Source: a virus. Taken from it: a stretch of DNA of 23,294 nucleotides. Both the position numbers and the translations under genes were made by a program. Each line of letters begins with the position of its first letter. The first letter of the stretch is position 1. The notes beneath the pieces were generated by a model. It saw only the letters and a list, made by a program, of their open reading frames with translations. It was not told where the DNA came from and ran no database searches. Positions 2,794 through 22,424 of the stretch are shown in pieces. The DNA is taken from positions 1 through 23,294 of the IMG/VR virus record IMGVR_UViG_3300020733_000823; one strand, written 5' to 3'.

Positions 2794-3177
2794 ATGGCCT
2801 ATAGCGATAAAGTTTTGGATCACTACGAAAACCCACGTAATGTAGGAAGTTTGGATAAAAATAGTCCAAATGTAGGTACCGGTATGGTTGGTGCCCCGGC
2901 ATGTGGGGATGTAATGAAATTACAGATAGAGGTTAATGATGAAGGGATTATTACAGACGCCAAATTTAAAACCTACGGCTGCGGATCTGCTATTGCGTCG
3001 TCTTCGCTGGTCACGACGTGGCTCCAAGGTAAAACGCTCGACCAAGCTTCAGAAATTAAAAACTCACAAATTGCTGAAGAATTGGCCCTACCCCCGGTTA
3101 AAATCCACTGCTCGATATTGGCCGAAGATGCAGTCAAGGCGGCTATAAATGATTACCGTAACAAACGCAGCCAGTAA
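2794..3177 (+). CDS. iscU: IscU-type iron-sulfur cluster scaffold
   Basis: IscU assembles [2Fe-2S] clusters from sulfur delivered by the cysteine desulfurase IscS. The 127-residue sequence keeps all three ligand cysteines at the same numbers as E. coli: C37 in PACGDV, C63 in YGCGSA and C106 in KIHCS, plus D39. It also keeps LPPVK at 99-103, the peptide that recruits the Hsp70 chaperone HscA in bacteria. It overlaps iscA by 29 nt, so the two are coupled. No iscS, hscA or hscB is in the window, so host IscS is presumably used. The phage DnaK encoded at 9035 is a generic Hsp70. Identification is very secure. Confidence 0.95.
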   Translation: MAYSDKVLDHYENPRNVGSLDKNSPNVGTGMVGAPACGDVMKLQIEVNDEGIITDAKFKTYGCGSAIASSSLVTTWLQGKTLDQASEIKNSQIAEELALPPVKIHCSILAEDAVKAAINDYRNKRSQ

Positions 3178-3469
3178 AAAAATTAAAGAAAATCTTGCCA
3201 AACGTGGCAAGGGCATTGGTATCCGTGTGGGCATACGAACTACAGGGTGTTCTGGGCTTGCTTATGTATTAGAATATGTGGATACCTCATGGGACGGATC
3301 TGTTGCGTTCCCACAACAGAAATTTGGTATTTTGGTAGATCAAAAAGACCTACCTTATCTTGACGGTCTTGAAATAGACTATGTACGTCAAGGGCTCAAC
3401 GAAGGATTCGAATTCAAAAATCCTCAAGAAAAAGATCGATGCGGTTGCGGAGAATCATTTCGAGTTTGA
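3149..3469 (+). CDS. iscA: IscA/ErpA-type A-type Fe-S carrier
   Basis: A-type carrier that receives and delivers Fe-S clusters. The 106-residue protein has the three conserved cysteines, C34 (TTGCSGLAY), C98 and C100 (RCGCGESF), equivalent to C35, C99 and C101 of E. coli IscA. The ATG at 3149 lies inside the end of iscU, a 29-nt overlap that signals translational coupling. Likely clients include the iron enzymes of this region or host Fe-S proteins needed during infection, such as ferredoxin for the bilin reductase; this is inference. The stop codon overlaps the -35 box of the next promoter. IscA versus ErpA cannot be separated by eye. Confidence 0.92.
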   Translation: MITVTNAASKKIKENLAKRGKGIGIRVGIRTTGCSGLAYVLEYVDTSWDGSVAFPQQKFGILVDQKDLPYLDGLEIDYVRQGLNEGFEFKNPQEKDRCGCGESFRV

Positions 3470-9002: not shown

Positions 9003-9034
9003 GAATTTACTTGCTTAATTATAAGGAGAAAATT

Positions 9035-10942
9035 ATGAGCAAAATCATCGGTATCGACTTAGGTACAACAAATAGCTGTGTGGCAATCCTAGAAAACGGA
9101 GTTGCTAAGGTAATTGAAAACAGCGAAGGTGCTAGAACAACACCATCAATCATTGCATATACAAAGGACGAGATCCTAGTAGGTGCAACAGCAAAACGAC
9201 AAGCCGTCACAAATCCAAAGAATACAATCTACGCAGCCAAGCGTCTAATCGGACGTAAGTTTGATGAGAAAGAAGTCCAAAAGGACATCGATCTAATGCC
9301 TTACGGTATTATCAAAGCAGATAACGGCGATGCCTGGATTGAAGCTAATGGCGAAAAATTGGCTCCACCACAAGTTTCAGCTGAAGTACTTCGTAAGATG
9401 AAAAAGACTGCTGAAGACTATTTGGGTACAACAGTTACTCAAGCAGTTATCACAGTTCCAGCTTACTTCAACGACAGCCAACGTCAGGCTACTAAGGATG
9501 CAGGTAAAATTGCAGGCCTAGAAGTTCTGCGTATTATTAATGAGCCAACAGCAGCCGCACTAGCATATGGTGTTGACAAAGCTGATAACCGTGATCGTAA
9601 GATTGCTGTATACGACCTAGGTGGTGGTACATTTGACGTGTCTATTATTGATATTAGTAATGTAGACGGCGACAAGCAAATTGAAGTGCTATCAACAAAT
9701 GGAGATACATTCTTAGGTGGTGAAGACTTTGACCAAGTTCTAATGGATTATCTATGCGATGAATTTAAGAAAGAAAATGGTATTGATCTTAAACAGGATC
9801 AACTAGCCCTACAACGCTTAAAAGACTCAGCTGAAAAGGCCAAGATTGAATTGTCAAGTGCTAACCAAACTACAGTGAACTTGCCATATGTTACAGCAGA
9901 TGCAAGTGGTCCTAAGCATTTAAATATAACTATCAATCGTGCTAAGTTTGAGTCAATGGTTGAAAGCCTAATTCAACGTTCACTAGCACCATGCAAAACA
10001 GCTATGGCAGATGCTAAAGTAACTGCCGCAGACATTGACGAAGTTATTTTAGTTGGTGGACAAACACGTATGCCTAAGGTACAAGAAGCAGTTGAGAAAC
10101 TGTTTGGTAAGGCTCCACGCAAAGACGTTAACCCAGACGAAGCTGTTGCCGCAGGTGCCGCTATTCAAGGTGCTGTTCTAGCAGGTGATAAGACTGACGT
10201 TCTATTGTTAGACGTAACACCATTGAGCTTGGGTATTGAAACAATGGGCGGTGTGTTTACCAAGTTAATCAACAAGAATACAACTATCCCAACTAAGGCT
10301 AGCCAAACATTTAGTACTGCTGAAGATAATCAACCAGCTGTAACTATTAAAGTTGGTCAAGGTGAACGTGATATCGCCAAGTATAACAAACTATTAGGTG
10401 AGTTTAACTTAGAAGGTATCGCTCCGCAAATGCGTGGTGTTCCACAAATTGAAGTTACATTTGATATTGACGCAAACGGTATTATGCACGTTAGCGCCAA
10501 AGATAAGAATACAGGCAAAGAAAACAAAATTACTATCAAATCAGATTCTGGATTGAGCAAAGAAGATATTGATCGTATGATTAAAGAAGCTGAAGCTAAT
10601 GCGGAATCAGATAAGAAAGCTAAAGAAGTAATCGATGCCCGTAATAGCGCAGACGGCGCAGCTCACTCAATTAAAAAGGACTTTGATACTTACAAAGATC
10701 AATTAGTTGAGGAAGACAAAAAGAAAATTGAAGATGCATTTACCGCACTTGATGAAGCTATCAAAGGTGAAGATGCAGAAGCGATTAACAAAGCTAGTCA
10801 AACTTTAATCGAGTCAGCGGCTCCAGTATTCACCAAGAAACAAGAAGCTGAGGCAGCTAAGGCAGCAACTCCAGATCAGCCAGTTGATGGTACTGTAGTT
10901 GATGCAGACTTTAAAGAAGTTGACGCAGAAGAAAAGAAGTAA
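9035..10942 (+). CDS. dnaK: Hsp70 chaperone DnaK
   Basis: A full-length Hsp70 of 635 residues (E. coli 638). It shows the nucleotide-binding signatures [13 protein letters not shown] (about 4-16) and [15 protein letters not shown] (about 192-206), the linker [13 protein letters not shown], a substrate-binding beta domain and a helical lid ending in an acidic/Lys tail. ATG 9035 follows AAGGAG with ideal spacing; an in-frame TTG at 9011 lies inside the conserved leader and is rejected. No dnaJ or grpE is nearby, so host co-chaperones are presumably used. Codon choice (frequent CTA, ACA, GTA) matches neighbouring phage genes, so the gene has ameliorated. Likely helps fold abundant virion or auxiliary proteins. 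Confidence 0.97.
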
Positions 10943-10949
10943 TATAATA
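10943..10949 (+). promoter_or_regulatory. Possible promoter TATAATA of hsp20
   Basis: TATAATA directly after the dnaK stop is a one- or two-base variant of the late box and also a perfect -10 hexamer without a -35. It would place the RNA start near 10955-10957, again at the foot of the leader hairpin. Confidence 0.35.
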
Positions 10950-10956
10950 TAAACAA

Positions 10957-10979
10957 GTAGGGCGCCGAAAGGGCCCTAC
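10957..10979 (+). ncRNA. 5' leader hairpin of hsp20 (bulged-G, GNRA loop)
   Basis: GTAGGGC (10957-10963) pairs with GCCCTAC (10973-10979). G10964 is bulged, CC (10965-10966) pairs with GG (10971-10972), and the loop is GAAA. It lies 30 nt before the hsp20 ATG. The lower-stem pairs differ from the dnaK copy in a compensatory way (A-U and G-U become G-C). No T-run follows, so this is not a normal terminator. Confidence 0.65.
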
Positions 10980-11009
10980 AAAGTTCTTGCTTAGTATAAG
11001 GAGAAAATT

Positions 11010-11429
11010 ATGACACAATTAAGAACTATAGACGCGGCACATCTTGCCAATTTAAGTAGAGCATTAGTGGGATTTGATCGTTACTTTAACGGACACTTAC
11101 AACCAAACGGTAACTATCCACCACACAATATTGTCAAGTATGATGACACACATTATGCTATTGAAGTTGCAGTAGCTGGATTTAGTAAAGATGAAATCAC
11201 AGTAGAAGTTGATCAAGATCAACTAACTATTCGTGGTAATCAATCAGCAGACAGTGATGAAAAAACATATTTACATCGCGGTTTGGCATCACGTGATTTT
11301 GAACAGACATTTACTCTAGCCGAGTATATGAATGTGTTAGGTGCAGAAGTTAAGGATGGTATGCTTAAAATTGGTATCGAGCGTATTATTCCAGAAGCAC
11401 TCAAGCCACGTCAAATTGAAGTTAAATAA
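11010..11429 (+). CDS. hsp20: Small heat-shock protein (Hsp20/IbpA type)
   Basis: A 139-residue alpha-crystallin-domain chaperone. The core runs from about residue 33 (NYPPHNIVKYDDTHYAIEV) through AVAGFSKDEI to the conserved GMLKIGIERIIPEA. The C-terminal IxI/V anchor is present as QIEVK, as in IbpA/IbpB. Such proteins hold unfolding proteins for DnaK, which is encoded immediately upstream. Hsp20 genes are common in T4-like cyanophages and relatives. The leader shares with dnaK both the hairpin and the start-proximal block TTGCTTA...TATAAGGAGAAAATTATG, so the two genes probably respond to the same post-transcriptional control. Confidence 0.93.
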   Translation: MTQLRTIDAAHLANLSRALVGFDRYFNGHLQPNGNYPPHNIVKYDDTHYAIEVAVAGFSKDEITVEVDQDQLTIRGNQSADSDEKTYLHRGLASRDFEQTFTLAEYMNVLGAEVKDGMLKIGIERIIPEALKPRQIEVK

Positions 11430-11435
11430 TCAATC

Positions 11436-11453
11436 GGGGGAGGCAACTCCCCC
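11436..11453 (+). terminator. GC-rich hairpin between hsp20 and clpS
   Basis: GGGGGAG (11436-11442) pairs perfectly with CTCCCCC (11447-11453) around a GCAA (GNRA) loop. The tail is ACTTTAT rather than a T-run, so it may act as a partial terminator or as a clpS leader hairpin 20 nt before its ATG. Unlike the dnaK and hsp20 hairpins it has no bulged G. Confidence 0.5.
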
Positions 11454-11473
11454 ACTTTATAGAAAGAGATAAA

Positions 11474-11776
11474 ATGCCAACTACAGATATACAACTAGAC
11501 GAAAAAATAGTTGTTAAAATTTCCGAACCAAGACAGTGGAAAGTTATACTGTTAAATGATGATACTACACCAATGGAGTTTGTAGTAGCAATGCTAACTA
11601 GTATCTTTAAGCATACCGCAGAGTCAGCACATGCTGTAATGTTAGAAGTACACGAATCAGGTAGCGGTATTGCCGGCATTTATAGTTTTGAAATTGCAGA
11701 AGCTAAAGCAGTCGAAGCTACTAATCTTGCTCGTACAAATGCTTACCCACTACAGATCAAATTGGAAGAAGAATGA
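11474..11776 (+). CDS. clpS: ClpS adaptor protein
   Basis: A 100-residue ClpS that binds N-degron substrates and hands them to ClpAP or ClpCP. The signature WKVILLNDDTTPMEFVV (about 22-38) forms the N-end residue pocket, and the Clp-contacting region and C-terminal YPLQIKLEEE are also typical. N-terminal region is short, as in proteobacterial ClpS. No Clp ATPase is in the window, so it would redirect the host protease. The TGA stop overlaps the heme oxygenase ATG by 4 nt. Together with DnaK and Hsp20 it forms a viral proteostasis group. Confidence 0.92.
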   Translation: MPTTDIQLDEKIVVKISEPRQWKVILLNDDTTPMEFVVAMLTSIFKHTAESAHAVMLEVHESGSGIAGIYSFEIAEAKAVEATNLARTNAYPLQIKLEEE

Positions 11777-12333
11777 GCAATCTACGTGAATTAACCAAAG
11801 AAGCACATACAAATGCAGAGCGCCAAGAATTTGTAAAGATTTTATTTTCAGGTAAAATTAATCCTAAACTGTATGCAGCCTATTTAAAAAATCAACATCC
11901 GCAGTATGAAATCTTAGAAGTATGTGCAATGATGCATCCGGGATTGCTAAGTGGTATGCCCGATATCCGTCGTGCTCCTGCTATCCTAGAAGACTTTACC
12001 GAACTATGGGGTGCCGACAACGAAGAACAAGTAGAAATACTTCCCGTAGTAAATGAATATGTAAAGTATATCCTAAGTATCAAACATGATACACAAAAAC
12101 TAATGGCACATATCTATGTTCGCCATATGGGCGATCTAGCTGGTGGACAGATGATTGCTAAAAAAGTTCCAGGTAAAGGTAGGTACTATCAGTTTAGCGA
12201 TCCTAATACTCTTAAAGAAGCTATTCGCGCTAAGATAGATGATAGTATGGCCGATGAAGCTAAATTATGTTTTGACTACGCTACTCGATTTTTTAAAGAA
12301 ATGATGGAAGTTGTTGAATATAAAGATGAGTAA
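11773..12333 (+). CDS. ho1: Heme oxygenase
   Basis: A 186-residue all-helical heme oxygenase that opens heme to biliverdin, CO and iron using reduced ferredoxin. The probable proximal heme ligand is H12 (TKEAHTNAE), and the distal-helix signature HMGDLAGGQ (118-126) matches the family's GDLSGGQ. Length is a little short of cyanobacterial HO1 (about 240) but close to phage and proteobacterial forms. It is coupled to clpS by an ATGA overlap and to the following bilin reductase by an 8-nt overlap, so biliverdin would be passed to that enzyme. The released iron could also help the nearby Fe-S genes. Confidence 0.92.
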   Translation: MSNLRELTKEAHTNAERQEFVKILFSGKINPKLYAAYLKNQHPQYEILEVCAMMHPGLLSGMPDIRRAPAILEDFTELWGADNEEQVEILPVVNEYVKYILSIKHDTQKLMAHIYVRHMGDLAGGQMIAKKVPGKGRYYQFSDPNTLKEAIRAKIDDSMADEAKLCFDYATRFFKEMMEVVEYKDE

Positions 12334-13006
12334 AGTATGGGACACACTGATAGACATACAGCATCTACTAGAAGAAAGTTTTGAACGCACTGGCTCTGAA
12401 ATTTTCGAGTCTGGTATGGATCGTTTTAACCAACCTGGCTGGATTAATAGGGTATGGACTAGTGATCGCTATCGCCGTGCTCACGTTGACGTGGTGGATG
12501 CGAGAGAAACTAAAGGACTTTGGATGATGCATTGTTGCATCTTCCCACATACTCATAATCCTGCTCCAATTTACGGCTTTGATGTAGTAGCTGGTAAAAA
12601 CAAAATGACTGGCTGTTTCCATGACTATTCAAAAGCTGGGGATCCCAATCATCCAATGATGTCGTGGTTTGCTGAAGAAATTAGCAAGTTAGAATGGCGC
12701 AAACCTAGAGCTTTACCTGAATGGGCTACCAACATATTCAGCCCTAGCATGGTTGCCGCTGGTAATGTGCAAGATGAAGCAGAATTAGAGCAAATTATGA
12801 CTATGGCTAGAACTACTCTAGCACACTACTTAGATACTGTAGCTGAAACTAATAATACTGCCCTAGATACAACAGAACAGCAGAATTACTACTGTCAAAA
12901 TCAGAAATGTAACCCGCACACACCTAAAGTTATGGTTAGTTTAGGGCTTAGTGAAGAGGATGTACAAGTGTTCATCCAGGAATGCTTGTTCCCAGAAATA
13001 CGCTAA
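12326..13006 (+). CDS. pcyX: Ferredoxin-dependent bilin reductase (PcyX/PebS type)
   Basis: A 226-residue reductase that would reduce biliverdin from the adjacent heme oxygenase. The FDBR core is clear: RRAHVDVVDARETKGLWMMH (51-69), CIFPH, IYGFDVVAG, then CFHDYS and WFAEEI. H69 and D86 correspond to PcyA H88 and D105. In the C-terminal block YCQNQKCNPHTPKV, P197 occupies the place where PcyA and PebS carry an aspartate used in later reduction steps. Phage FDBRs PebS and PcyX make phycoerythrobilin; overall appearance and non-cyanobacterial context favour PcyX, but the exact product is not certain. ATG 12326 overlaps the heme oxygenase end by 8 nt. Confidence 0.82.
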   Translation: MSKVWDTLIDIQHLLEESFERTGSEIFESGMDRFNQPGWINRVWTSDRYRRAHVDVVDARETKGLWMMHCCIFPHTHNPAPIYGFDVVAGKNKMTGCFHDYSKAGDPNHPMMSWFAEEISKLEWRKPRALPEWATNIFSPSMVAAGNVQDEAELEQIMTMARTTLAHYLDTVAETNNTALDTTEQQNYYCQNQKCNPHTPKVMVSLGLSEEDVQVFIQECLFPEIR

Positions 13007-14712: not shown

Positions 14713-14740
14713 CTAATAAGACCTAGTGGGAGCGAAAACC

Positions 14741-15235
14741 ATGTCAAAAAGAGTATTATGCCTATTGCTGGCATTATTACCTCTGCCTGTATTAGCAACA
14801 ACGATTGCCGACTATAGCTTCAAAAGCCCTAGTCTGAACGGTAACGGCTATGGCGCCTACCAAATGGCTATCGAAAACGAGCAGTATACACGCCAACAAC
14901 AAATTCAGCAGTCTATCCAAGCGGCCGCTCAGGCAAAAATAGCAGCGGATCAAAATACTCCATTGGCTATGTTTTTAACCAACTTGGAATCACGTATCTA
15001 TGCACAGATTAGCCAGAATGTGGCAACCAGTATGTTTAGTTCAACAGGTGCTCCGCAAAGTGGCAGTATTAATTTTGGCGGTAGCATTATCAGTTGGCAG
15101 CCAACAACACTGCCAGCAACAGTAGTCGGTGGAAATACGATTCCAGGCGGACAAGGTATTAAAATGACTATCATTGATCCAACAGGTAATACTTCTGTAA
15201 TCAATGTACCTTTAGGACAATTTGTCATACCATGA
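14741..15235 (+). CDS. csgF: CsgF-type curli assembly factor
   Basis: A 164-residue exported protein. The signal peptide ends about residue 19 (LPLPVLA). The mature N-terminus DYSFKSPSLNGNGYGAYQM parallels the CsgF segment FQFRNPNFGGNPNNGAF that plugs into the CsgG pore. The remainder has a Gln-rich helix and a beta-rich C-terminus (KMTIIDPTGNTSVINVPL) like the CsgF DxxG...QVSG tail. CsgF links the CsgG channel to the surface nucleator in curli export. ATG 14741 follows GGGAG; a GTG at 14726 would spoil the signal peptide. The stop overlaps csgG (ATGA), and csgF-csgG adjacency matches curli operons. Longer than the 138 residues of E. coli CsgF. Confidence 0.87.
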   Translation: MSKRVLCLLLALLPLPVLATTIADYSFKSPSLNGNGYGAYQMAIENEQYTRQQQIQQSIQAAAQAKIAADQNTPLAMFLTNLESRIYAQISQNVATSMFSSTGAPQSGSINFGGSIISWQPTTLPATVVGGNTIPGGQGIKMTIIDPTGNTSVINVPLGQFVIP

Positions 15236-16284
15236 AGAAATTAATTTTATCTCTATTAGTGTTAGGTATGCTGGGCGGATGTGCTGTGTCACAGAAAGTT
15301 GGCTTGTATGACTATAAACCAAAGGCTGCTAAAAATGAATTGGACAAAGAACTAAATGAAGTTCCACCACCAAGCAAGGGTAAACTGACCGTGGCAGTCT
15401 ACAGCTTCCAAGATAAGACAGGACAGCGTAAATCAGTTCCAGGTATAGCCAGCTTTTCAACAGCAGTTACCCAGGGTGCTGATGTATTTTTAATTCGCGC
15501 ACTACAGGATGTAGGACAAGGCACATGGTTTGATGTAGTGGAACGTGGCAACTTAGATGACTTGACTAAAGAGCGATTGATTATTAAACAAATGCGTGAT
15601 GCCTATGAAGGTCCAAGCGCACAAAAACTAATGCCGTTAACCTTTGCCGGAATACTAATTGAAGGCGGAGTCATTGGCTATGACACAGGATTAGAAAGTG
15701 GTGGCACAGGCTACAACTGGTTAGGCATCGGCCCGAGTACACAGTATTCAAAGGATATCGTCACTGTTAGCATGCGAGCTGTCAGTGTTAATACAGGTAA
15801 AATACTAGCCAGCGTTACAGTGACAAAAGTAGTATTATCAACATCTGATACTATTGCTATATTCAAAAGCGTAGACCCAGCAGGCGGCAGTATTCTAAGT
15901 CAAGTACAGGCATGGAACACTGGCAGCCAAGCAGTAGGCGCAGGTATATTTCAATTTGAATCAGGTATTGTTATAAACGAAGCAACTACATTGGCATTAA
16001 AGTCAACTATAGAAAGCACAGTAGTCGAATTAATTAAGGAAGGACAACGTAAGGGAGTATGGGACTATAAATTTCCGTTTCCTGAAACTAAATCCTGGTA
16101 TGATTTTAGCAGTAATGCAGCACCGGTGAAAACTGAAGTTCAAAAAGATTCGCCGATAGCAGTATCACCAGCAGTACCAAACAGTAGTGGAAAAGGAAAT
16201 GCTGATATTCCATTGGGATTGTCAAACACACAGAAAGATGTGTCAGCGGATGAGGCAGCGAAGTTAGGGGTAGTAAAAAAATAA
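15232..16284 (+). CDS. csgG: CsgG-type curli secretion channel lipoprotein
   Basis: CsgG forms the nonameric outer-membrane pore for curli subunits. The lipobox LGGC gives a lipidated C17. The family core is obvious: KLTVAVYSFQDKTGQ (51-65), SFSTAVTQGADVFLIRAL, the helix KERLIIKQMRDAYEG, GILIEGGVIGYDTGLESGG, the TQYSKD strand, and the end GVWDYKFP. In the constriction loop, KSVPGIASF replaces the E. coli KPYPASNF, so Y51 and N55 are not kept while F75 aligns with F56. The 350-residue protein is about 70 longer than E. coli CsgG because of a hydrophilic C-terminal tail. Its partner CsgF is upstream and a curlin-repeat substrate downstream. No csgE is visible. Confidence 0.93.
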   Translation: MKKLILSLLVLGMLGGCAVSQKVGLYDYKPKAAKNELDKELNEVPPPSKGKLTVAVYSFQDKTGQRKSVPGIASFSTAVTQGADVFLIRALQDVGQGTWFDVVERGNLDDLTKERLIIKQMRDAYEGPSAQKLMPLTFAGILIEGGVIGYDTGLESGGTGYNWLGIGPSTQYSKDIVTVSMRAVSVNTGKILASVTVTKVVLSTSDTIAIFKSVDPAGGSILSQVQAWNTGSQAVGAGIFQFESGIVINEATTLALKSTIESTVVELIKEGQRKGVWDYKFPFPETKSWYDFSSNAAPVKTEVQKDSPIAVSPAVPNSSGKGNADIPLGLSNTQKDVSADEAAKLGVVKK

Positions 16285-16358: not shown

Positions 16359-17300
16359 GTGAAAATGAAAAAAAGTCTAAAAGGCGCTGGCGTGTTGTCG
16401 AGAAAATTACACGCAATGCTGGTGGTGGCTGGAATGCTCTCATTGGCGTCTGCTTACGCAGGTGACAATACTATCTACATTAATCAAGCAGGTAGTAATG
16501 ACACTATTGGTGTAACACAGAATGGAGCAGGTAATGCTGTTGAAGGTATACAGGGTACAGGAACTGGAGCAACTACTCCGGCGAATATACAGGGTAATAA
16601 CCAGACTATCAGTATTAACCAAGTTGGTACTGGTAATACCTTGCAGTTTGGCATCAATACCACAGTGGCTAACGGCAAAACCGGCAACAATTACTCATAC
16701 AGTGTAACTGGTAACAATGCCACTGCTGTTATCAACAGTAATAATGATGGCAGTGCTACTAGTGCCAGTAATAATATTAGCATAACACAAACTGGTGATA
16801 CTGCCAATGCCAACATTAATCTAACAGGTACAGGTAATAACTTTACTGCTGTAACCAGTGGCGGTGCAAGCAATAGTGTAGTGGCTAATATCAAAGGTGC
16901 AGGAACAACTGATAACATTACTATGACTGGCGGTGCCAGTAACAGTTTTACCACTAATCAAGGTGTAAACACAGCAGTGGTAAGTGGTACTAACATCACC
17001 GTCAACACCAACGGTGCTGGCAACACATTCAGCATTAACCAAGATGGTGGTACTAATGGCAACACTGTGACTGTAGGTGGCTATAGTAGTAACTCAATAA
17101 CACCAACAACTACATCAGTAGGATCTAGCAACTCGATAACTGTAGCACAGTCAGGCGGTTACGACAATACATTTATTCTAGGCTTAACTGGCAGTAACAA
17201 TACATTTGGTGTTACACAAACAGGTACAGCCGGTAATAACACTACCAATATCCAAAGTAACGGTAGCAGTAACACATGGACAATTCATCAGACACATTAA
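16359..17300 (+). CDS. Secreted curlin-repeat protein (major curli-like subunit)
   Basis: A 313-residue exported protein, almost entirely Asn/Thr/Gly/Ser/Gln. A long signal peptide ends in SLASAYA (about residue 34). Curlin-type repeats follow, built on NxIxINQxGxxNxxxxxQxGxGN: NTIYINQAGSNDTIGVTQNG, QTISINQVGTGNT, NISITQTGD and NTFGVTQTGT, among others. This strand-loop pattern is that of CsgA/CsgB amyloid. Start: GTG 16359, or ATG 16365 two codons on; the hairpin at 16333-16354 positions AGGAG next to the GTG. Directly downstream of csgG, it is the presumed export substrate. CsgA-like or CsgB-like role cannot be decided, so no symbol is given. Confidence 0.85.
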   Translation: MKMKKSLKGAGVLSRKLHAMLVVAGMLSLASAYAGDNTIYINQAGSNDTIGVTQNGAGNAVEGIQGTGTGATTPANIQGNNQTISINQVGTGNTLQFGINTTVANGKTGNNYSYSVTGNNATAVINSNNDGSATSASNNISITQTGDTANANINLTGTGNNFTAVTSGGASNSVVANIKGAGTTDNITMTGGASNSFTTNQGVNTAVVSGTNITVNTNGAGNTFSINQDGGTNGNTVTVGGYSSNSITPTTTSVGSSNSITVAQSGGYDNTFILGLTGSNNTFGVTQTGTAGNNTTNIQSNGSSNTWTIHQTH

Positions 17301-17316
17301 TTGGATTGGGGGATAG

Positions 17317-18450
17317 ATGAACGTATGGAAGTCGGGCTTATTCGCAGTATTATTCAGTACCTCACTGACTGCTATGTCAGCGGTAGGAACTATCACGGAA
17401 CAAGCCAGCGCACCAGCTACCATTCAGAGGGCAAAAAGTCAGTTAACTGGCACCAAGGGTGTTGGCGTAGAAATGGCGGATGCAATCAATACCAAGCAGG
17501 GCAAGGTTGGAATAGTATTTTCTGACAACACCAAAGTCCAGGTTAATGAAAATTCAAAGTTAGTTATCGATGAATTCGTCTATGATCCAAAAAATAAAGA
17601 TGCTGGTAAACTGGCTCTTAACATGGCAAGTGGAACCGTACGTTATGCTAGCGGTGCTATTGCTCATAACAATCCTAATCGGGTAGCAATCAATACTCCT
17701 ACTGCTACTGTGGCTGTGCGAGGTACTGATTTTACTGCCACAGTAGATGAACTAGGTGAAAGCACCTTTATCCTACTGCCTTCGTGCCCACGTACTAACA
17801 TGATGCCAGACGAAATAGAACGACAGTGCAAGACAGGAATTATTGATGTTATCACAGATGCCGGCAAGGTAACCTTGGATCAGGCATTTCAAGCAACCAA
17901 AGTTGTGGCTCGCAATCAACCTCCTACTAAACCTGTAACAATTAGACTTAATGAAGATGCCATTGGTAATATCTTAATCCTAGCACCGCCTCAAGAAATT
18001 ACCAATGCCCGTAAGCAGTATGAAGAAAATAAAAATATGGCTGCCAGTGCATTGAGCCAAAACTTTTTGCAGGGTGTAGATTTAAGCAGTGTGTTGGCAG
18101 AACAAAATGCCACTTACTTGAATAATGCTCTACAGCGTAACTTCTTGGATCAAGACTTCCTGGCTAATATTTTATCCTTGCTGAATGAACAGCTATCACA
18201 AGAGTTTAGCAATTTATTAAAACCTAAAAATGCACTACTACCAGACTATACCAAAGCCAGTGGTGTAGTGGCCACTGTGGATGCTATCAATGTTGAACTG
18301 TGCCGCAGTGACAGTGCCAGCAATACCAGCTGTATCACCACACCTAAAACACAAAACTCAACTGTGACACAAACACAAAGTGAGAATGTGGCATTTAAGA
18401 ATCGTATCAACGCGGGCAACAATACTTTCATAACTACCAAGCAGAATTAA
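17317..18450 (+). CDS. Exported FecR-domain protein of the curli locus
   Basis: A 377-residue protein with a signal peptide (MNVWKSGLFAVLFSTSLTAMSA). The FecR-type beta domain spans about 55-145: AINTKQGKVGIVFSDNTKVQV, NSKLVIDEF, GTVRYASG and INTPTATVAVRGTDF. A helical region (about 230-310) and an Asn/Thr-rich tail follow; cysteines occur in pairs (SCPR...RQCK, ELCR...SCIT). In siderophore systems FecR passes signals across the inner membrane, but here there is no N-terminal cytoplasmic part, so it is more likely a periplasmic or surface scaffold. FecR-domain genes accompany curli-like loci in some bacteria. Lies between two curlin genes, 1-16 nt from each. Confidence 0.78.
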   Translation: MNVWKSGLFAVLFSTSLTAMSAVGTITEQASAPATIQRAKSQLTGTKGVGVEMADAINTKQGKVGIVFSDNTKVQVNENSKLVIDEFVYDPKNKDAGKLALNMASGTVRYASGAIAHNNPNRVAINTPTATVAVRGTDFTATVDELGESTFILLPSCPRTNMMPDEIERQCKTGIIDVITDAGKVTLDQAFQATKVVARNQPPTKPVTIRLNEDAIGNILILAPPQEITNARKQYEENKNMAASALSQNFLQGVDLSSVLAEQNATYLNNALQRNFLDQDFLANILSLLNEQLSQEFSNLLKPKNALLPDYTKASGVVATVDAINVELCRSDSASNTSCITTPKTQNSTVTQTQSENVAFKNRINAGNNTFITTKQN

Positions 18451-18451
18451 G

Positions 18452-19924
18452 ATGAAATTTACCGCTTATCTATTAGTTGCGTTTTTGCTTGCTGGTTTGG
18501 GATATTGTAATAAAACCCAAGCAGACGGTGTTGCTGGCTGGACATATACTACCTATTATGGCGGTGGCCCTAGTCCTAGCATTGCCAACCGAACTGTAGA
18601 TACTACGGGTGTAACCACATCAATCAATTATGACTGGGGCGGTGGTTTAGTCTTAGACAGTAGACTATACGACGGTGTAATTATACACTTTCAAGGATAC
18701 TTGCAAGCACCTACCACCGGTACCTATTACTTTGGAGTAGCCAGCGACGACGGTAATCAATTAACTATCAACAATACTGTGGTAACTGCCTGTTGGTGCG
18801 AACAAGGTACCACATTTAGATCAGGCAGTATCTATCTCACAGCTGGACAAATAGTGCCAGCCGACATATGGTATTATGAAAACGGTGGCGGTGCCGCGGT
18901 ACAGTTTTACTGGTATACCAATGGTAATTGGCAAATTGTACCAACTAGTATGATGGCTACCAGTGCTAGTTATTGGGGACCTAGTGTTACCGGTACAGGA
19001 AGCGGTACTATTACTACTACATCAACATCAGGATCAACAACATCAACTTATAGTCAGCCGGTGACTATTACCTACTATAGCGATGGCTCGCAGACTACTA
19101 CCAACAATGGAAGTGCAACTTTAATTAGCACAACTACCACTGGTGGATCTAGTACCATTACTAGCACACAACAACAAATGATTAACACAGTAGCATCACG
19201 CATGCCCGGATTGACTAACAACTCAATTTATATTAATCAAGCAGGTAACGGAGATACTATAAAAATTACTCAAGCAGGAGCAGGTAATGTTATAGATGGT
19301 GCTACTAGTACCAGTAACGGTCCTGGATATACTACAGCAGCACCTATTACAGGTGGCGGCAATAAAATTACTATACGGCAACAATCAAATAATAACATAA
19401 TAGATCTCGCTGCAACAGGCGGCAATAATACACTGAATTTAAATCAGGGTACTGATGCCAACGGTAATACTACCGGATTGGATCAAGGCGGACATTATCA
19501 GTTTGACTATATCAATGGATCCGGTAATCAGATAACTGTGGTGCAGGAAAATACATCAACTAATGCTGGACAGTTTAGTAGTCTAGCAGTAGTTGGTAAT
19601 TTAAACACTGTAGGTATCACACAAACAGGTAATGCTCGTAATCAATTGTTTGCCACTGTAAATGGTAACAGCAACTCAATTACTACAACGCAAACAGGTA
19701 CTAGTGCTGGATACATCAATATTTCAGCATCAGGTAATGGCAATTCAGCAGTGGTAAATCAAAGCAATACTGGTGCCACTGGCAACAATAATGCATCAAT
19801 TACATTAATAAACAATGGTGCACCTGCGAGTGTTAATCTAACACAAACTGGTGGACAGAATTATTCAGTTACACAATCGTGTGTAACCACATGCGGCACT
19901 ATAACAGTAAAACAGGGGAATTAA
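18452..19924 (+). CDS. PA14-domain protein fused to curlin repeats
   Basis: A 490-residue exported protein. Signal peptide at 1-24 (cleavage near TQA-DG; the LGYC is not a valid lipobox). Residues about 30-165 form a PA14 domain: YDGVIIHFQGYLQAPTTG, YYFGVASDDGNQLTINN, IWYYENGGGAAVQFYW. A Thr/Ser linker (180-245) leads to curlin repeats from about 257 on, starting NNSIYINQAGNGDTIKITQAGAGN, closely similar to the first repeat of the gene at 16359. PA14 domains bind carbohydrates, so this may be a surface adhesin that nucleates or caps the amyloid (CsgB-like). It begins one base after the FecR gene stop. Confidence 0.8.
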   Translation: MKFTAYLLVAFLLAGLGYCNKTQADGVAGWTYTTYYGGGPSPSIANRTVDTTGVTTSINYDWGGGLVLDSRLYDGVIIHFQGYLQAPTTGTYYFGVASDDGNQLTINNTVVTACWCEQGTTFRSGSIYLTAGQIVPADIWYYENGGGAAVQFYWYTNGNWQIVPTSMMATSASYWGPSVTGTGSGTITTTSTSGSTTSTYSQPVTITYYSDGSQTTTNNGSATLISTTTTGGSSTITSTQQQMINTVASRMPGLTNNSIYINQAGNGDTIKITQAGAGNVIDGATSTSNGPGYTTAAPITGGGNKITIRQQSNNNIIDLAATGGNNTLNLNQGTDANGNTTGLDQGGHYQFDYINGSGNQITVVQENTSTNAGQFSSLAVVGNLNTVGITQTGNARNQLFATVNGNSNSITTTQTGTSAGYINISASGNGNSAVVNQSNTGATGNNNASITLINNGAPASVNLTQTGGQNYSVTQSCVTTCGTITVKQGN

Positions 19925-20408: not shown

Positions 20409-22424
20409 ATGCTGAAAAAAATCCTAACTAGCCCCTGGACTGCTCTGCTAACACTAGCGTTAGTAGTGGGCTTACGTGTAGCAGACCCATCATTTGTAGA
20501 ATCAGTACGCCTACGTTACTTTGATACACTAGTAACTAGCAAAGCACCTGAGACTATAGGTGTTAGTGTAGTAAACATTGACGAAAAGGCTTTAGAAAAA
20601 TATGGACAATTCCCGTTTAGTAGAGATGTATATGCCCAGCTCATCCGAGACTTATACCGCCGTAATGCTGGTCTTGTGGTTTTCAATGTTCTTACTCCTG
20701 ATAGAGATCGCATGGGGCACGATGCGGAATACATACAAGCACTCAGACAGTATCCCACAATTCTTCCAGCAGTTGGGTCAACAAATAATCGCAACCAAGC
20801 CCGGAACCCTGGTTCTGTTATTATTGGACCTTATGGCTTGGATGCTTTTGTAACCTATCCGGGAATTGTAGCTAATCAGTCTAGTATAGAATCCGCTGCT
20901 GCCGGTGTAGGACTTGTCAATACCTTGCCCGAAGTTGACGGTGTTGTGCGCCGTATGCCTATGGTTGCTGCACATGACGGTAAACTATATCCTAGCCTTG
21001 CTATGGAAGTACTGCGTGTAGCTGCTGGCGATTCAACATTCCAAGTTAAGATTAACGAGAATGGCGTTGAGAAAATGCGTATTCCTAAGTTTGGACCTAT
21101 AACAACAGACAGTCTTTCACGTGTGTGGATTGATTGGAGTCTAGTACCAAGCAAGTATAGCCTAACAGATTTACCTCAAGACTTTGAAGGTGAAATAGTT
21201 ATTGTAGGTGTGTCAGCACAAGGCTTAGCAAATCCAGTTGCTACTAGTCTAGGTGAAATGCTGCCACAAGATTTACAAGCGGCTGTACTAGGTACCGTAA
21301 TCGCCAACAAGGATCGTCCAGCTATTACTCGTCCAGACTGGGCAGAAGGCGGTGAAGTATTACTGCTAGTAGCCCTAGGTGTTTTATTAATATTTTTATC
21401 AAGGTGGACCTATGTTGGAATTCTTAGTAGTGTTATTATTATTGGTGGTAGTATTCCCCTTTCTAGTTTTCTGTATAAGACTGATGCTTGGCTTATCGAT
21501 GTTACTAGTTTGGTTGGTGGGCTTGTGCTTGTTAGTCTCCATACTTACGGGGTCAAGTTTGTAAGTGAATTCTTACAGAAGCAACAAATCAAGAAACAGT
21601 TTGGTAGTTATGTTAATCCTACTATTGTAGAACGCTTACAGAAAGATCCTAGTCTAATTAAACTAGGTGGCGAGCGTAAAGAACTATCAATTGTTATGAC
21701 TGATCTTAGAGGCTTTACTACATTAGGTGAATCATTTGGAGATGATGTAGAAGGCCTAACACAAATCATGAACGACTACATGACTGCTTTGAGTGTTCCT
21801 GTGCTTAAAAATGATGGAACACTTATCAAGTTCATTGGTGATGCTAGTTTACATGTACACGGTGCTCCATTGGACGATATAAATCATGCCAAGACCGCTG
21901 TGCGTACGGCACAAGAAATGATCAAGGCAATTGATGATTTTAATGTCGAATTAACAGCCAAGGGTCGTCCGCCAGTAGGCATGGGCGCAGGTGTCAACAC
22001 CGGCGAAACACTCATTGGTAACATTGGCGCTAAGACTAAGTTTGGTTACGATGTCCTAGGCGATTCAGTAAGTACTGCGGCACGTTTAGAAGGACAAACC
22101 AAGGGCTACGGTGTCTTATTAATTATTGGGCCACGCACTGCTGAACTAGTACGTGACGAAATTCCTGTTGTAGAATTAGATTGTATTGCTGTTAAAGGTA
22201 AAACGATTGGATTAAAGATTTATACTCCGGGCAATAGCACAAAAGAACATGAACAGTTCTTAGATTTATACTATCGTGGACAGTGGTCAAAAGCACAGAT
22301 ATTAATTCCATCTTGTACAGCGTCTAACCCTGCACTAGCTGAATACTATCACAAGATGGAAGAACGCTTAAAAGAAGGTGTCCCAAGCAATTGGTCGGGC
22401 ACCTACGTTGCTACCTCAAAGTAA
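20409..22424 (+). CDS. CHASE2-domain class III adenylate/guanylate cyclase
   Basis: A 671-residue membrane cyclase. After an N-terminal TM (10-25), a CHASE2 sensor domain fills about 30-300. Three membrane helices follow (about 316-332, 335-352, 363-380), and a class III cyclase domain spans about 425-600. Metal aspartates are D432 (MTDLRGFT) and D478 (IKFIGDA); K474 is the purine-selecting lysine expected for ATP. The usual GDxVNxAAR motif reads GDSVSTAARLEG (551-562), so R559 is present but the transition-state asparagine is replaced by S555. Other sites look intact, so activity may be altered rather than lost. This class is typical of bacteria, not phages. Follows the curli locus after a terminator, with its own promoter. 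Confidence 0.9.
   Translation: MLKKILTSPWTALLTLALVVGLRVADPSFVESVRLRYFDTLVTSKAPETIGVSVVNIDEKALEKYGQFPFSRDVYAQLIRDLYRRNAGLVVFNVLTPDRDRMGHDAEYIQALRQYPTILPAVGSTNNRNQARNPGSVIIGPYGLDAFVTYPGIVANQSSIESAAAGVGLVNTLPEVDGVVRRMPMVAAHDGKLYPSLAMEVLRVAAGDSTFQVKINENGVEKMRIPKFGPITTDSLSRVWIDWSLVPSKYSLTDLPQDFEGEIVIVGVSAQGLANPVATSLGEMLPQDLQAAVLGTVIANKDRPAITRPDWAEGGEVLLLVALGVLLIFLSRWTYVGILSSVIIIGGSIPLSSFLYKTDAWLIDVTSLVGGLVLVSLHTYGVKFVSEFLQKQQIKKQFGSYVNPTIVERLQKDPSLIKLGGERKELSIVMTDLRGFTTLGESFGDDVEGLTQIMNDYMTALSVPVLKNDGTLIKFIGDASLHVHGAPLDDINHAKTAVRTAQEMIKAIDDFNVELTAKGRPPVGMGAGVNTGETLIGNIGAKTKFGYDVLGDSVSTAARLEGQTKGYGVLLIIGPRTAELVRDEIPVVELDCIAVKGKTIGLKIYTPGNSTKEHEQFLDLYYRGQWSKAQILIPSCTASNPALAEYYHKMEERLKEGVPSNWSGTYVATSK

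Follow-up and report, generated by a model that had tools for sequence, protein, structure and literature searches.

A curlin gene with a PA14 domain at an exchangeable N-terminus in a phage-encoded curli operon

Curli operons of the type VIII secretion class were reported in pelagiphages between 2020 and 2022 (PMC7029224, PMC9599517, PMC9004378), with the gene order csgF-csgG-curlin-fecR-second curlin-adenylate cyclase and without CsgE (PMC9599517). In these studies the second curlin gene is included in the operon and treated either as a plain curlin or as a hypothetical protein, and PA14 did not come up in the main text of any of the three papers. Published proposals for the role of curli in lytic phages of free-living aquatic bacteria range from "sibling capture" to the timing of lysis. 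A literature search for PA14 domains together with curlins returned a single paper, which concerns yeast-type adhesins.

The window analyzed here (the whole stretch of DNA under study) is a viral record of 23.3 kb containing csgF, csgG, a first curlin gene, fecR, a PA14-curlin gene, a small ORF, and a CHASE2-cyclase gene, in this order (Table 1). Direct homologues of the operon genes are present in phages HTVC008M and Melnitz, and the matching gene order is annotated in both and recurs in dozens of IMG/VR contigs from freshwater and marine phages. Both CsgG and CsgF are encoded in the operon of the PA14-curlin gene, which marks it by gene content as a type VIII secretion locus. The gene of interest lies at 18452-19924 on the + strand, where the first-pass annotation had placed it; it begins with ATG and encodes 490 amino acids, comprising a signal peptide, a PA14 domain, a Ser/Thr-rich linker, and curlin repeats from the N- to the C-terminus. 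That annotation had described a single secreted chain with PA14 at the N-terminus and curlin repeats at the C-terminus, and the Pfam match to PF07691, the repeat motif count, the match to CsgA structure 8C50, and the structural models all bear this out. In the AlphaFold2 model (mean pLDDT 69, mostly 65-88 in the PA14 part), the signal peptide appears as a hydrophobic helix at residues 2-15, and relatives share its pattern.

Table 1. Features of the PA14-curlin chain, its operon, and curlin-free proteins carrying head A (positions refer to the window unless a contig is named)
Feature	Position	Strand	Basis or remark
Signal peptide, residues 1-25	18452..18526	+	Probably signal peptidase I, ends KTQA/D; by inspection
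PA14 domain, residues ~25-176	18524..18979	+	Pfam PF07691 and structure matches of the model
Asp99-Asp100 (DD pair)	18746..18751	+	Invariant in 9 homologues; aligned to the DD of MpAFP PA14
Loop W140-Y-Y-E-N-G-G-G147	18869..18892	+	Corresponds to MpPA14 loop 11 (Gln156-Gly157) by profile alignment, PMC8092209
Ser/Thr-rich flexible linker, residues 177-252	18980..19207	+	pLDDT mostly <55
Linker stretch common to homologues with other heads	19028..19135	+	Likely exchange joint
Curlin-repeat domain, residues 253-490	19208..19921	+	Motif count, 8C50 match, strand ladder
Cys477 and Cys481, last repeat	19880..19894	+	Conservation in homologues
CsgF homologue	14726..15235	+	PF10614, E 4.8e-9
CsgG outer-membrane export channel homologue	15232..16284	+	PF03783, E 1.4e-42
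First curlin gene, headless, CsgA-like	16359..17300	+	PF07012, E 6.3e-5, above cut-off; motif count
FecR-domain protein	17317..18450	+	PF04773, E 2.7e-11; phrog_37870, E 3e-109
CHASE2-adenylate/guanylate cyclase, operon end	20409..22424	+	PF05226, E 4.7e-39; PF00211, E 6.4e-16
Head A proteins without curlin	L165:3917-6256, L167:3917-6745, L168:3914-6262		

The PA14 assignment is supported at the levels of both sequence and predicted structure. Pfam PF07691 matches residues 54-158 (E 1.7e-14; 54.3 bits against a cut-off of 24), and a phmmer search against solved chains retrieved RsgI-type proteins and an RTX adhesin through their PA14 domains. When residues ~22-176 of the model were compared with solved PA14 sugar-binding domains, matches reached Z scores of 17-21 over 138-156 residues with an rmsd of 1.7-4.2, the best being 6qe7 (Z 21), with the MpAFP PA14 lectin structures at Z ~17; the model adopts the beta-sandwich fold of solved PA14 domains. 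Sugar binding is absent in some PA14 domains. In the present family, Asp99, Asp100, and Gly101 do not vary across nine homologues, HTVC008M among them, and profile alignment places the DD pair on that of MpPA14 and the WYYENGG loop on its DQGG, with Asn in place of Gln156. The DD pair of PA14 lectins holds the Ca2+ that binds sugar (PMC8092209). By its DD pair and loop 11, the head appears to be of the sugar-binding type, and binding would then be Ca2+-dependent. Among close relatives, the PA14 part shows a dN/dS of 0.03-0.08, indicating strong purifying selection, which suggests that heads change by swapping rather than by fast substitution.

The stem can be recognized as curlin by several routes. 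Residues 253-490 contain 7 copies of the motif N-x-h-x-h-x-Q, compared with 0.72 in shuffled sequences, and none of 2000 shuffles reached 7. The Pfam curlin model PF07012 scores the window protein at 17.4 bits, below its cut-off of 20.7, and the HTVC008M homologue at 33.1 bits, above it, while a profile of the stem family matches the solved curli subunit CsgA R15.5 (8C50) with an E value of 1.5e-4. Structure prediction, the check suggested in the first-pass annotation, recovered both the PA14 fold and the expected repeats: the stem of the window protein is modeled as a strand ladder like that of the headed homologue L149, whose model, of moderate confidence, matches beta-solenoid structures with Z 18.9 over 205 residues. 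The last repeat is deviant yet among the best conserved parts of the second curlin; Cys477 and Cys481 are each 95% conserved, and 73 of 75 homologues have at least two Cys among their final 25 residues.

The close resemblance noted earlier between the first repeat of this protein and that of the gene at 16359 was confirmed (tblastn, 48% identity over 65 aa, E 5e-9; 61% over the 28-aa repeat), and the recent duplication of the neighboring curlin that had been proposed to explain it was not. The first repeats of the two genes are 86% and 82% identical to those of the same gene elsewhere, compared with 61% to each other, and the nearest neighbor of a first repeat belongs to the same paralogue in 74 of 78 cases, a pattern that argues against the first curlin gene having been duplicated recently. 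Judged from these repeat sequences, the two curlins of the window are old paralogues. The excess similarity of curlins within a phage ignores relatedness and was not counted as evidence. Fusion to a head was likewise recurrent rather than a single event, given the many head changes of the second curlin gene in the stem tree.

A search for the PA14-curlin architecture, also suggested beforehand, found it in many viral contigs and in HTVC008M. In other viral contigs, PA14-curlin proteins at the same operon slot range from 87% to ~27% identity to the window protein, and the HTVC008M chain combines PA14 (E 2.7e-6) with curlin (E 5.2e-8). The stem that follows fecR may carry PA14, a 145-aa module without a Pfam name (head A), a combination of heads B and A, head A with another piece, head A with PA14 (L154), or no head. 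Among 87 distinct proteins, 47 have head A, 24 PA14, one both, 14 none, and one another head, counts that mirror how the loci were found rather than natural frequencies. In the stem tree, built by a quick method from 80 rows with some long branches, the head changes 13-14 times; on its well-supported branches alone there are at least five gains or losses of head A and at least four of PA14. PA14, A, A+B, and headless forms all occur in the well-supported clade of the window protein. The window-type linker motif is also found in L026, L028, L038, and L040, whose heads are A, B, or C and not PA14, so that the linker shared by PA14-, A-, and B-headed relatives looks like an exchange joint. On this comparative sequence evidence, the second curlin gene is modular, with a conserved stem and an N-terminus exchangeable among related phages. 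The operon itself was already known, and the novelty lies in this modularity and the swapped heads. One stem with differing heads in related phages suggests exchangeable adhesins displayed by infected bacteria.

Head A extends beyond curli. Nearly all of the 60 contigs that encode it show it before a curlin downstream of fecR, or the sequence ends early; in L165, L167, and L168 it occurs in proteins lacking curlin and fecR. In the L168 protein, head A is accompanied by an autotransporter barrel and by a galactose-binding-like domain of F5/8 type C, both above cut-off. The L165 protein also has an F5/8 domain, and its C-terminus shares 43% identity with the one in L168; L167 shows weak similarity to L165 (25%, E 3e-7); an autotransporter barrel in L167 is a guess. 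Searches of viral contigs with exact patterns from the autotransporter part of L168 returned no relative besides L168 itself. Head A is found on two surface-display routes, which supports an extracellular role, and represents a new, widespread phage module on two kinds of surface protein. Head A was not detected in sequenced phage records. A structure search of head A, made within a larger model, gave no recognized match, and the term "lectin head" accordingly applies by homology solely to PA14 and F5/8. Another set of PA14 proteins from phages (L113-L128) forms a family apart, whose members combine repeats of low complexity with a C-terminal stretch (e.g., GADMSPQTREQAEK) that is conserved and peculiar to them; they are not curlins.

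A bacterial source of the fusion, which may lie beyond the sample covered, was also sought. A scan of genome contigs yielded just a headless Fibrella curlin; in 296 Bacteroidota genomes, PA14 matches did not extend past the front of the profile, and all 20 checked loci were without curlin; and curlin loci on ten bacterial plasmids had no match to PA14, head A, or head B. In each of five long records from related phages, PA14 occurs a single time, in the second curlin gene, so that in these records the domain was not copied from a tail fibre of the phage itself.

Several features of the surrounding genes deserve mention. The FecR-domain protein has a short C-terminal strand-like stretch that resembles a curlin strand, with a final Gln invariant in 13 phages, although this tail reached no significance as a curlin repeat when the window protein was taken alone. 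It also weakly matches models of the Leptospira surface adhesins Lsa33 and LipL45, far below cut-off, and may serve in the envelope as part of the fibre rather than as an iron regulator. The cyclase at L016:7161-9176 is 96% identical to that of the window, whereas fecR (62%) and the first curlin (41%) diverge, pointing to recombination between operon genes. An additional gene separates fecR and the second curlin in two contigs (L015:5267-5953, matching Gcw_chp PF09694, and L024:9118-9795, which looks similar). The stretch from the second curlin to the cyclase is a hypervariable spot in L004-L009, with inserts of at most ~5 kb whose gene content differs among close relatives. Elsewhere in the window, a heme oxygenase gene (PF01126, E 7.5e-24) adjoins one for a ferredoxin-dependent bilin reductase (PF05996, E 1.1e-15) at 11773-13006, forming a phage bilin pathway; in a chaperone/proteolysis cluster at 9011-11776, a complete phage DnaK (Hsp70, E 2e-258) precedes an Hsp20 and a ClpS adaptor; and an IscU-like (NifU_N) gene adjoins an IscA-like gene for iron-sulphur assembly at 2794-3469.

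Regarding function, the first-pass proposal of an amyloid with glycan affinity is retained as the leading reading because the chain is secreted, the predicted folds are those expected, the Ca2+- and sugar-site residues are present, and the operon encodes CsgG and CsgF; from these features we infer amyloid formation and glycan binding themselves. We lean toward regarding the PA14-curlin protein as a minor adhesive subunit of the phage-encoded curli system on infected cells. In the route that we infer, the chain would cross the inner membrane via Sec and the outer membrane via the phage CsgG during infection, and its stem would be added to, or initiate, a first-curlin fibre on the infected cell. 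The PA14 head could then bind sugar on neighboring cells, matrix, or progeny virions, head exchange would retarget adhesion as hosts and surface sugars change, and the benefit may be the capture of cells or virions or the masking of the cell. The passage of folded domains fused to CsgA through CsgG in E. coli (PMC9477280) supports an adhesive subunit. Several points count against it: clumping was not seen with phage Melnitz (PMC9004378), although the second curlin of Melnitz is headless; the published operon lacks CsgE (PMC9599517); some PA14 domains bind no sugar; and a folded PA14 domain is not expected to fit the CsgG pore, so that its folding would have to be delayed until after export.

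A wider view, offered tentatively, is that aquatic phages may possess a recombining adhesin system in which exchangeable sugar-binding heads sit on a phage-made amyloid or, elsewhere, on an autotransporter, and capture hosts or hold progeny. If so, the heads would be under host-driven exchange, as receptor-binding proteins are, while acting on the infected cell and not the virion. A targeted adhesin would be expected to show just this combination of a constant stem and exchanged binding heads.

It is unlikely, by comparison, that the protein acts mainly as a CsgB-like nucleator, whose last repeat and Cys pair would dock CsgF and seed the first curlin while the head grips the cell's own polysaccharide. 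A cluster with two curlin genes matches the usual CsgA/CsgB layout, the imperfect last repeat of CsgB has been implicated in contact with CsgF (PMC10192328), and the last repeat of the window protein is similarly deviant, well conserved, and equipped with a conserved Cys pair; a nucleator would nevertheless need no exchangeable head, and the heads observed here change often and are sometimes missing. Still less probable is a head that plugs or gates CsgG on the periplasmic side, or renders the channel leaky, in an operon that times lysis: a lysis role of CsgGF has been proposed for Melnitz (PMC9004378) and a folded head is unlikely to pass the pore, but such a plug would require neither conserved sugar-site residues nor many unrelated heads, and head A also occurs with an autotransporter barrel. 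That the protein belongs to the virion, as a tail fibre or decoration whose repeats form a plain beta-solenoid shaft, is very improbable, for while tail spikes often contain beta-solenoids and PA14 domains are found in other phage proteins, this one has a signal peptide, a fixed slot in a CsgG/CsgF export operon, and a PA14 domain without a second occurrence in the five long related records.

With an adhesive subunit as the preferred reading, the question on phage curli becomes which sugar is bound by the head and on which cell. Annotation is improved as well, since the second curlin gene of the cultured phage HTVC008M has so far been listed as a hypothetical protein.

Among known proteins, A0A6J7WGW2 of an uncultured Caudovirales phage (UniProt/BFVD; 442 aa, 33% identity across most of the chain) is probably a full-length relative with the same architecture, although it is named just for its PA14 domain ("PA14 domain-containing"). 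The head shares its PA14 fold, DD pair, and loop 11 Gly with MpPA14 of the Marinomonas primoryensis ice adhesin (PMC8092209), which, unlike the window protein, is one domain within a 1.5-MDa RTX adhesin and has no curlin stem. Conversely, the curlin motif and beta-solenoid of the stem are those of E. coli CsgA and CsgB (CsgA R15.5, 8C50), both of which are headless. A comparable design is the engineered CsgA-VHH (PMC9477280), a man-made protein in which a binding domain is placed on a curlin stem and exported by CsgG, whereas the PA14-curlin protein is natural, carries its head at the N-terminus, and would presumably be exported in the same manner.
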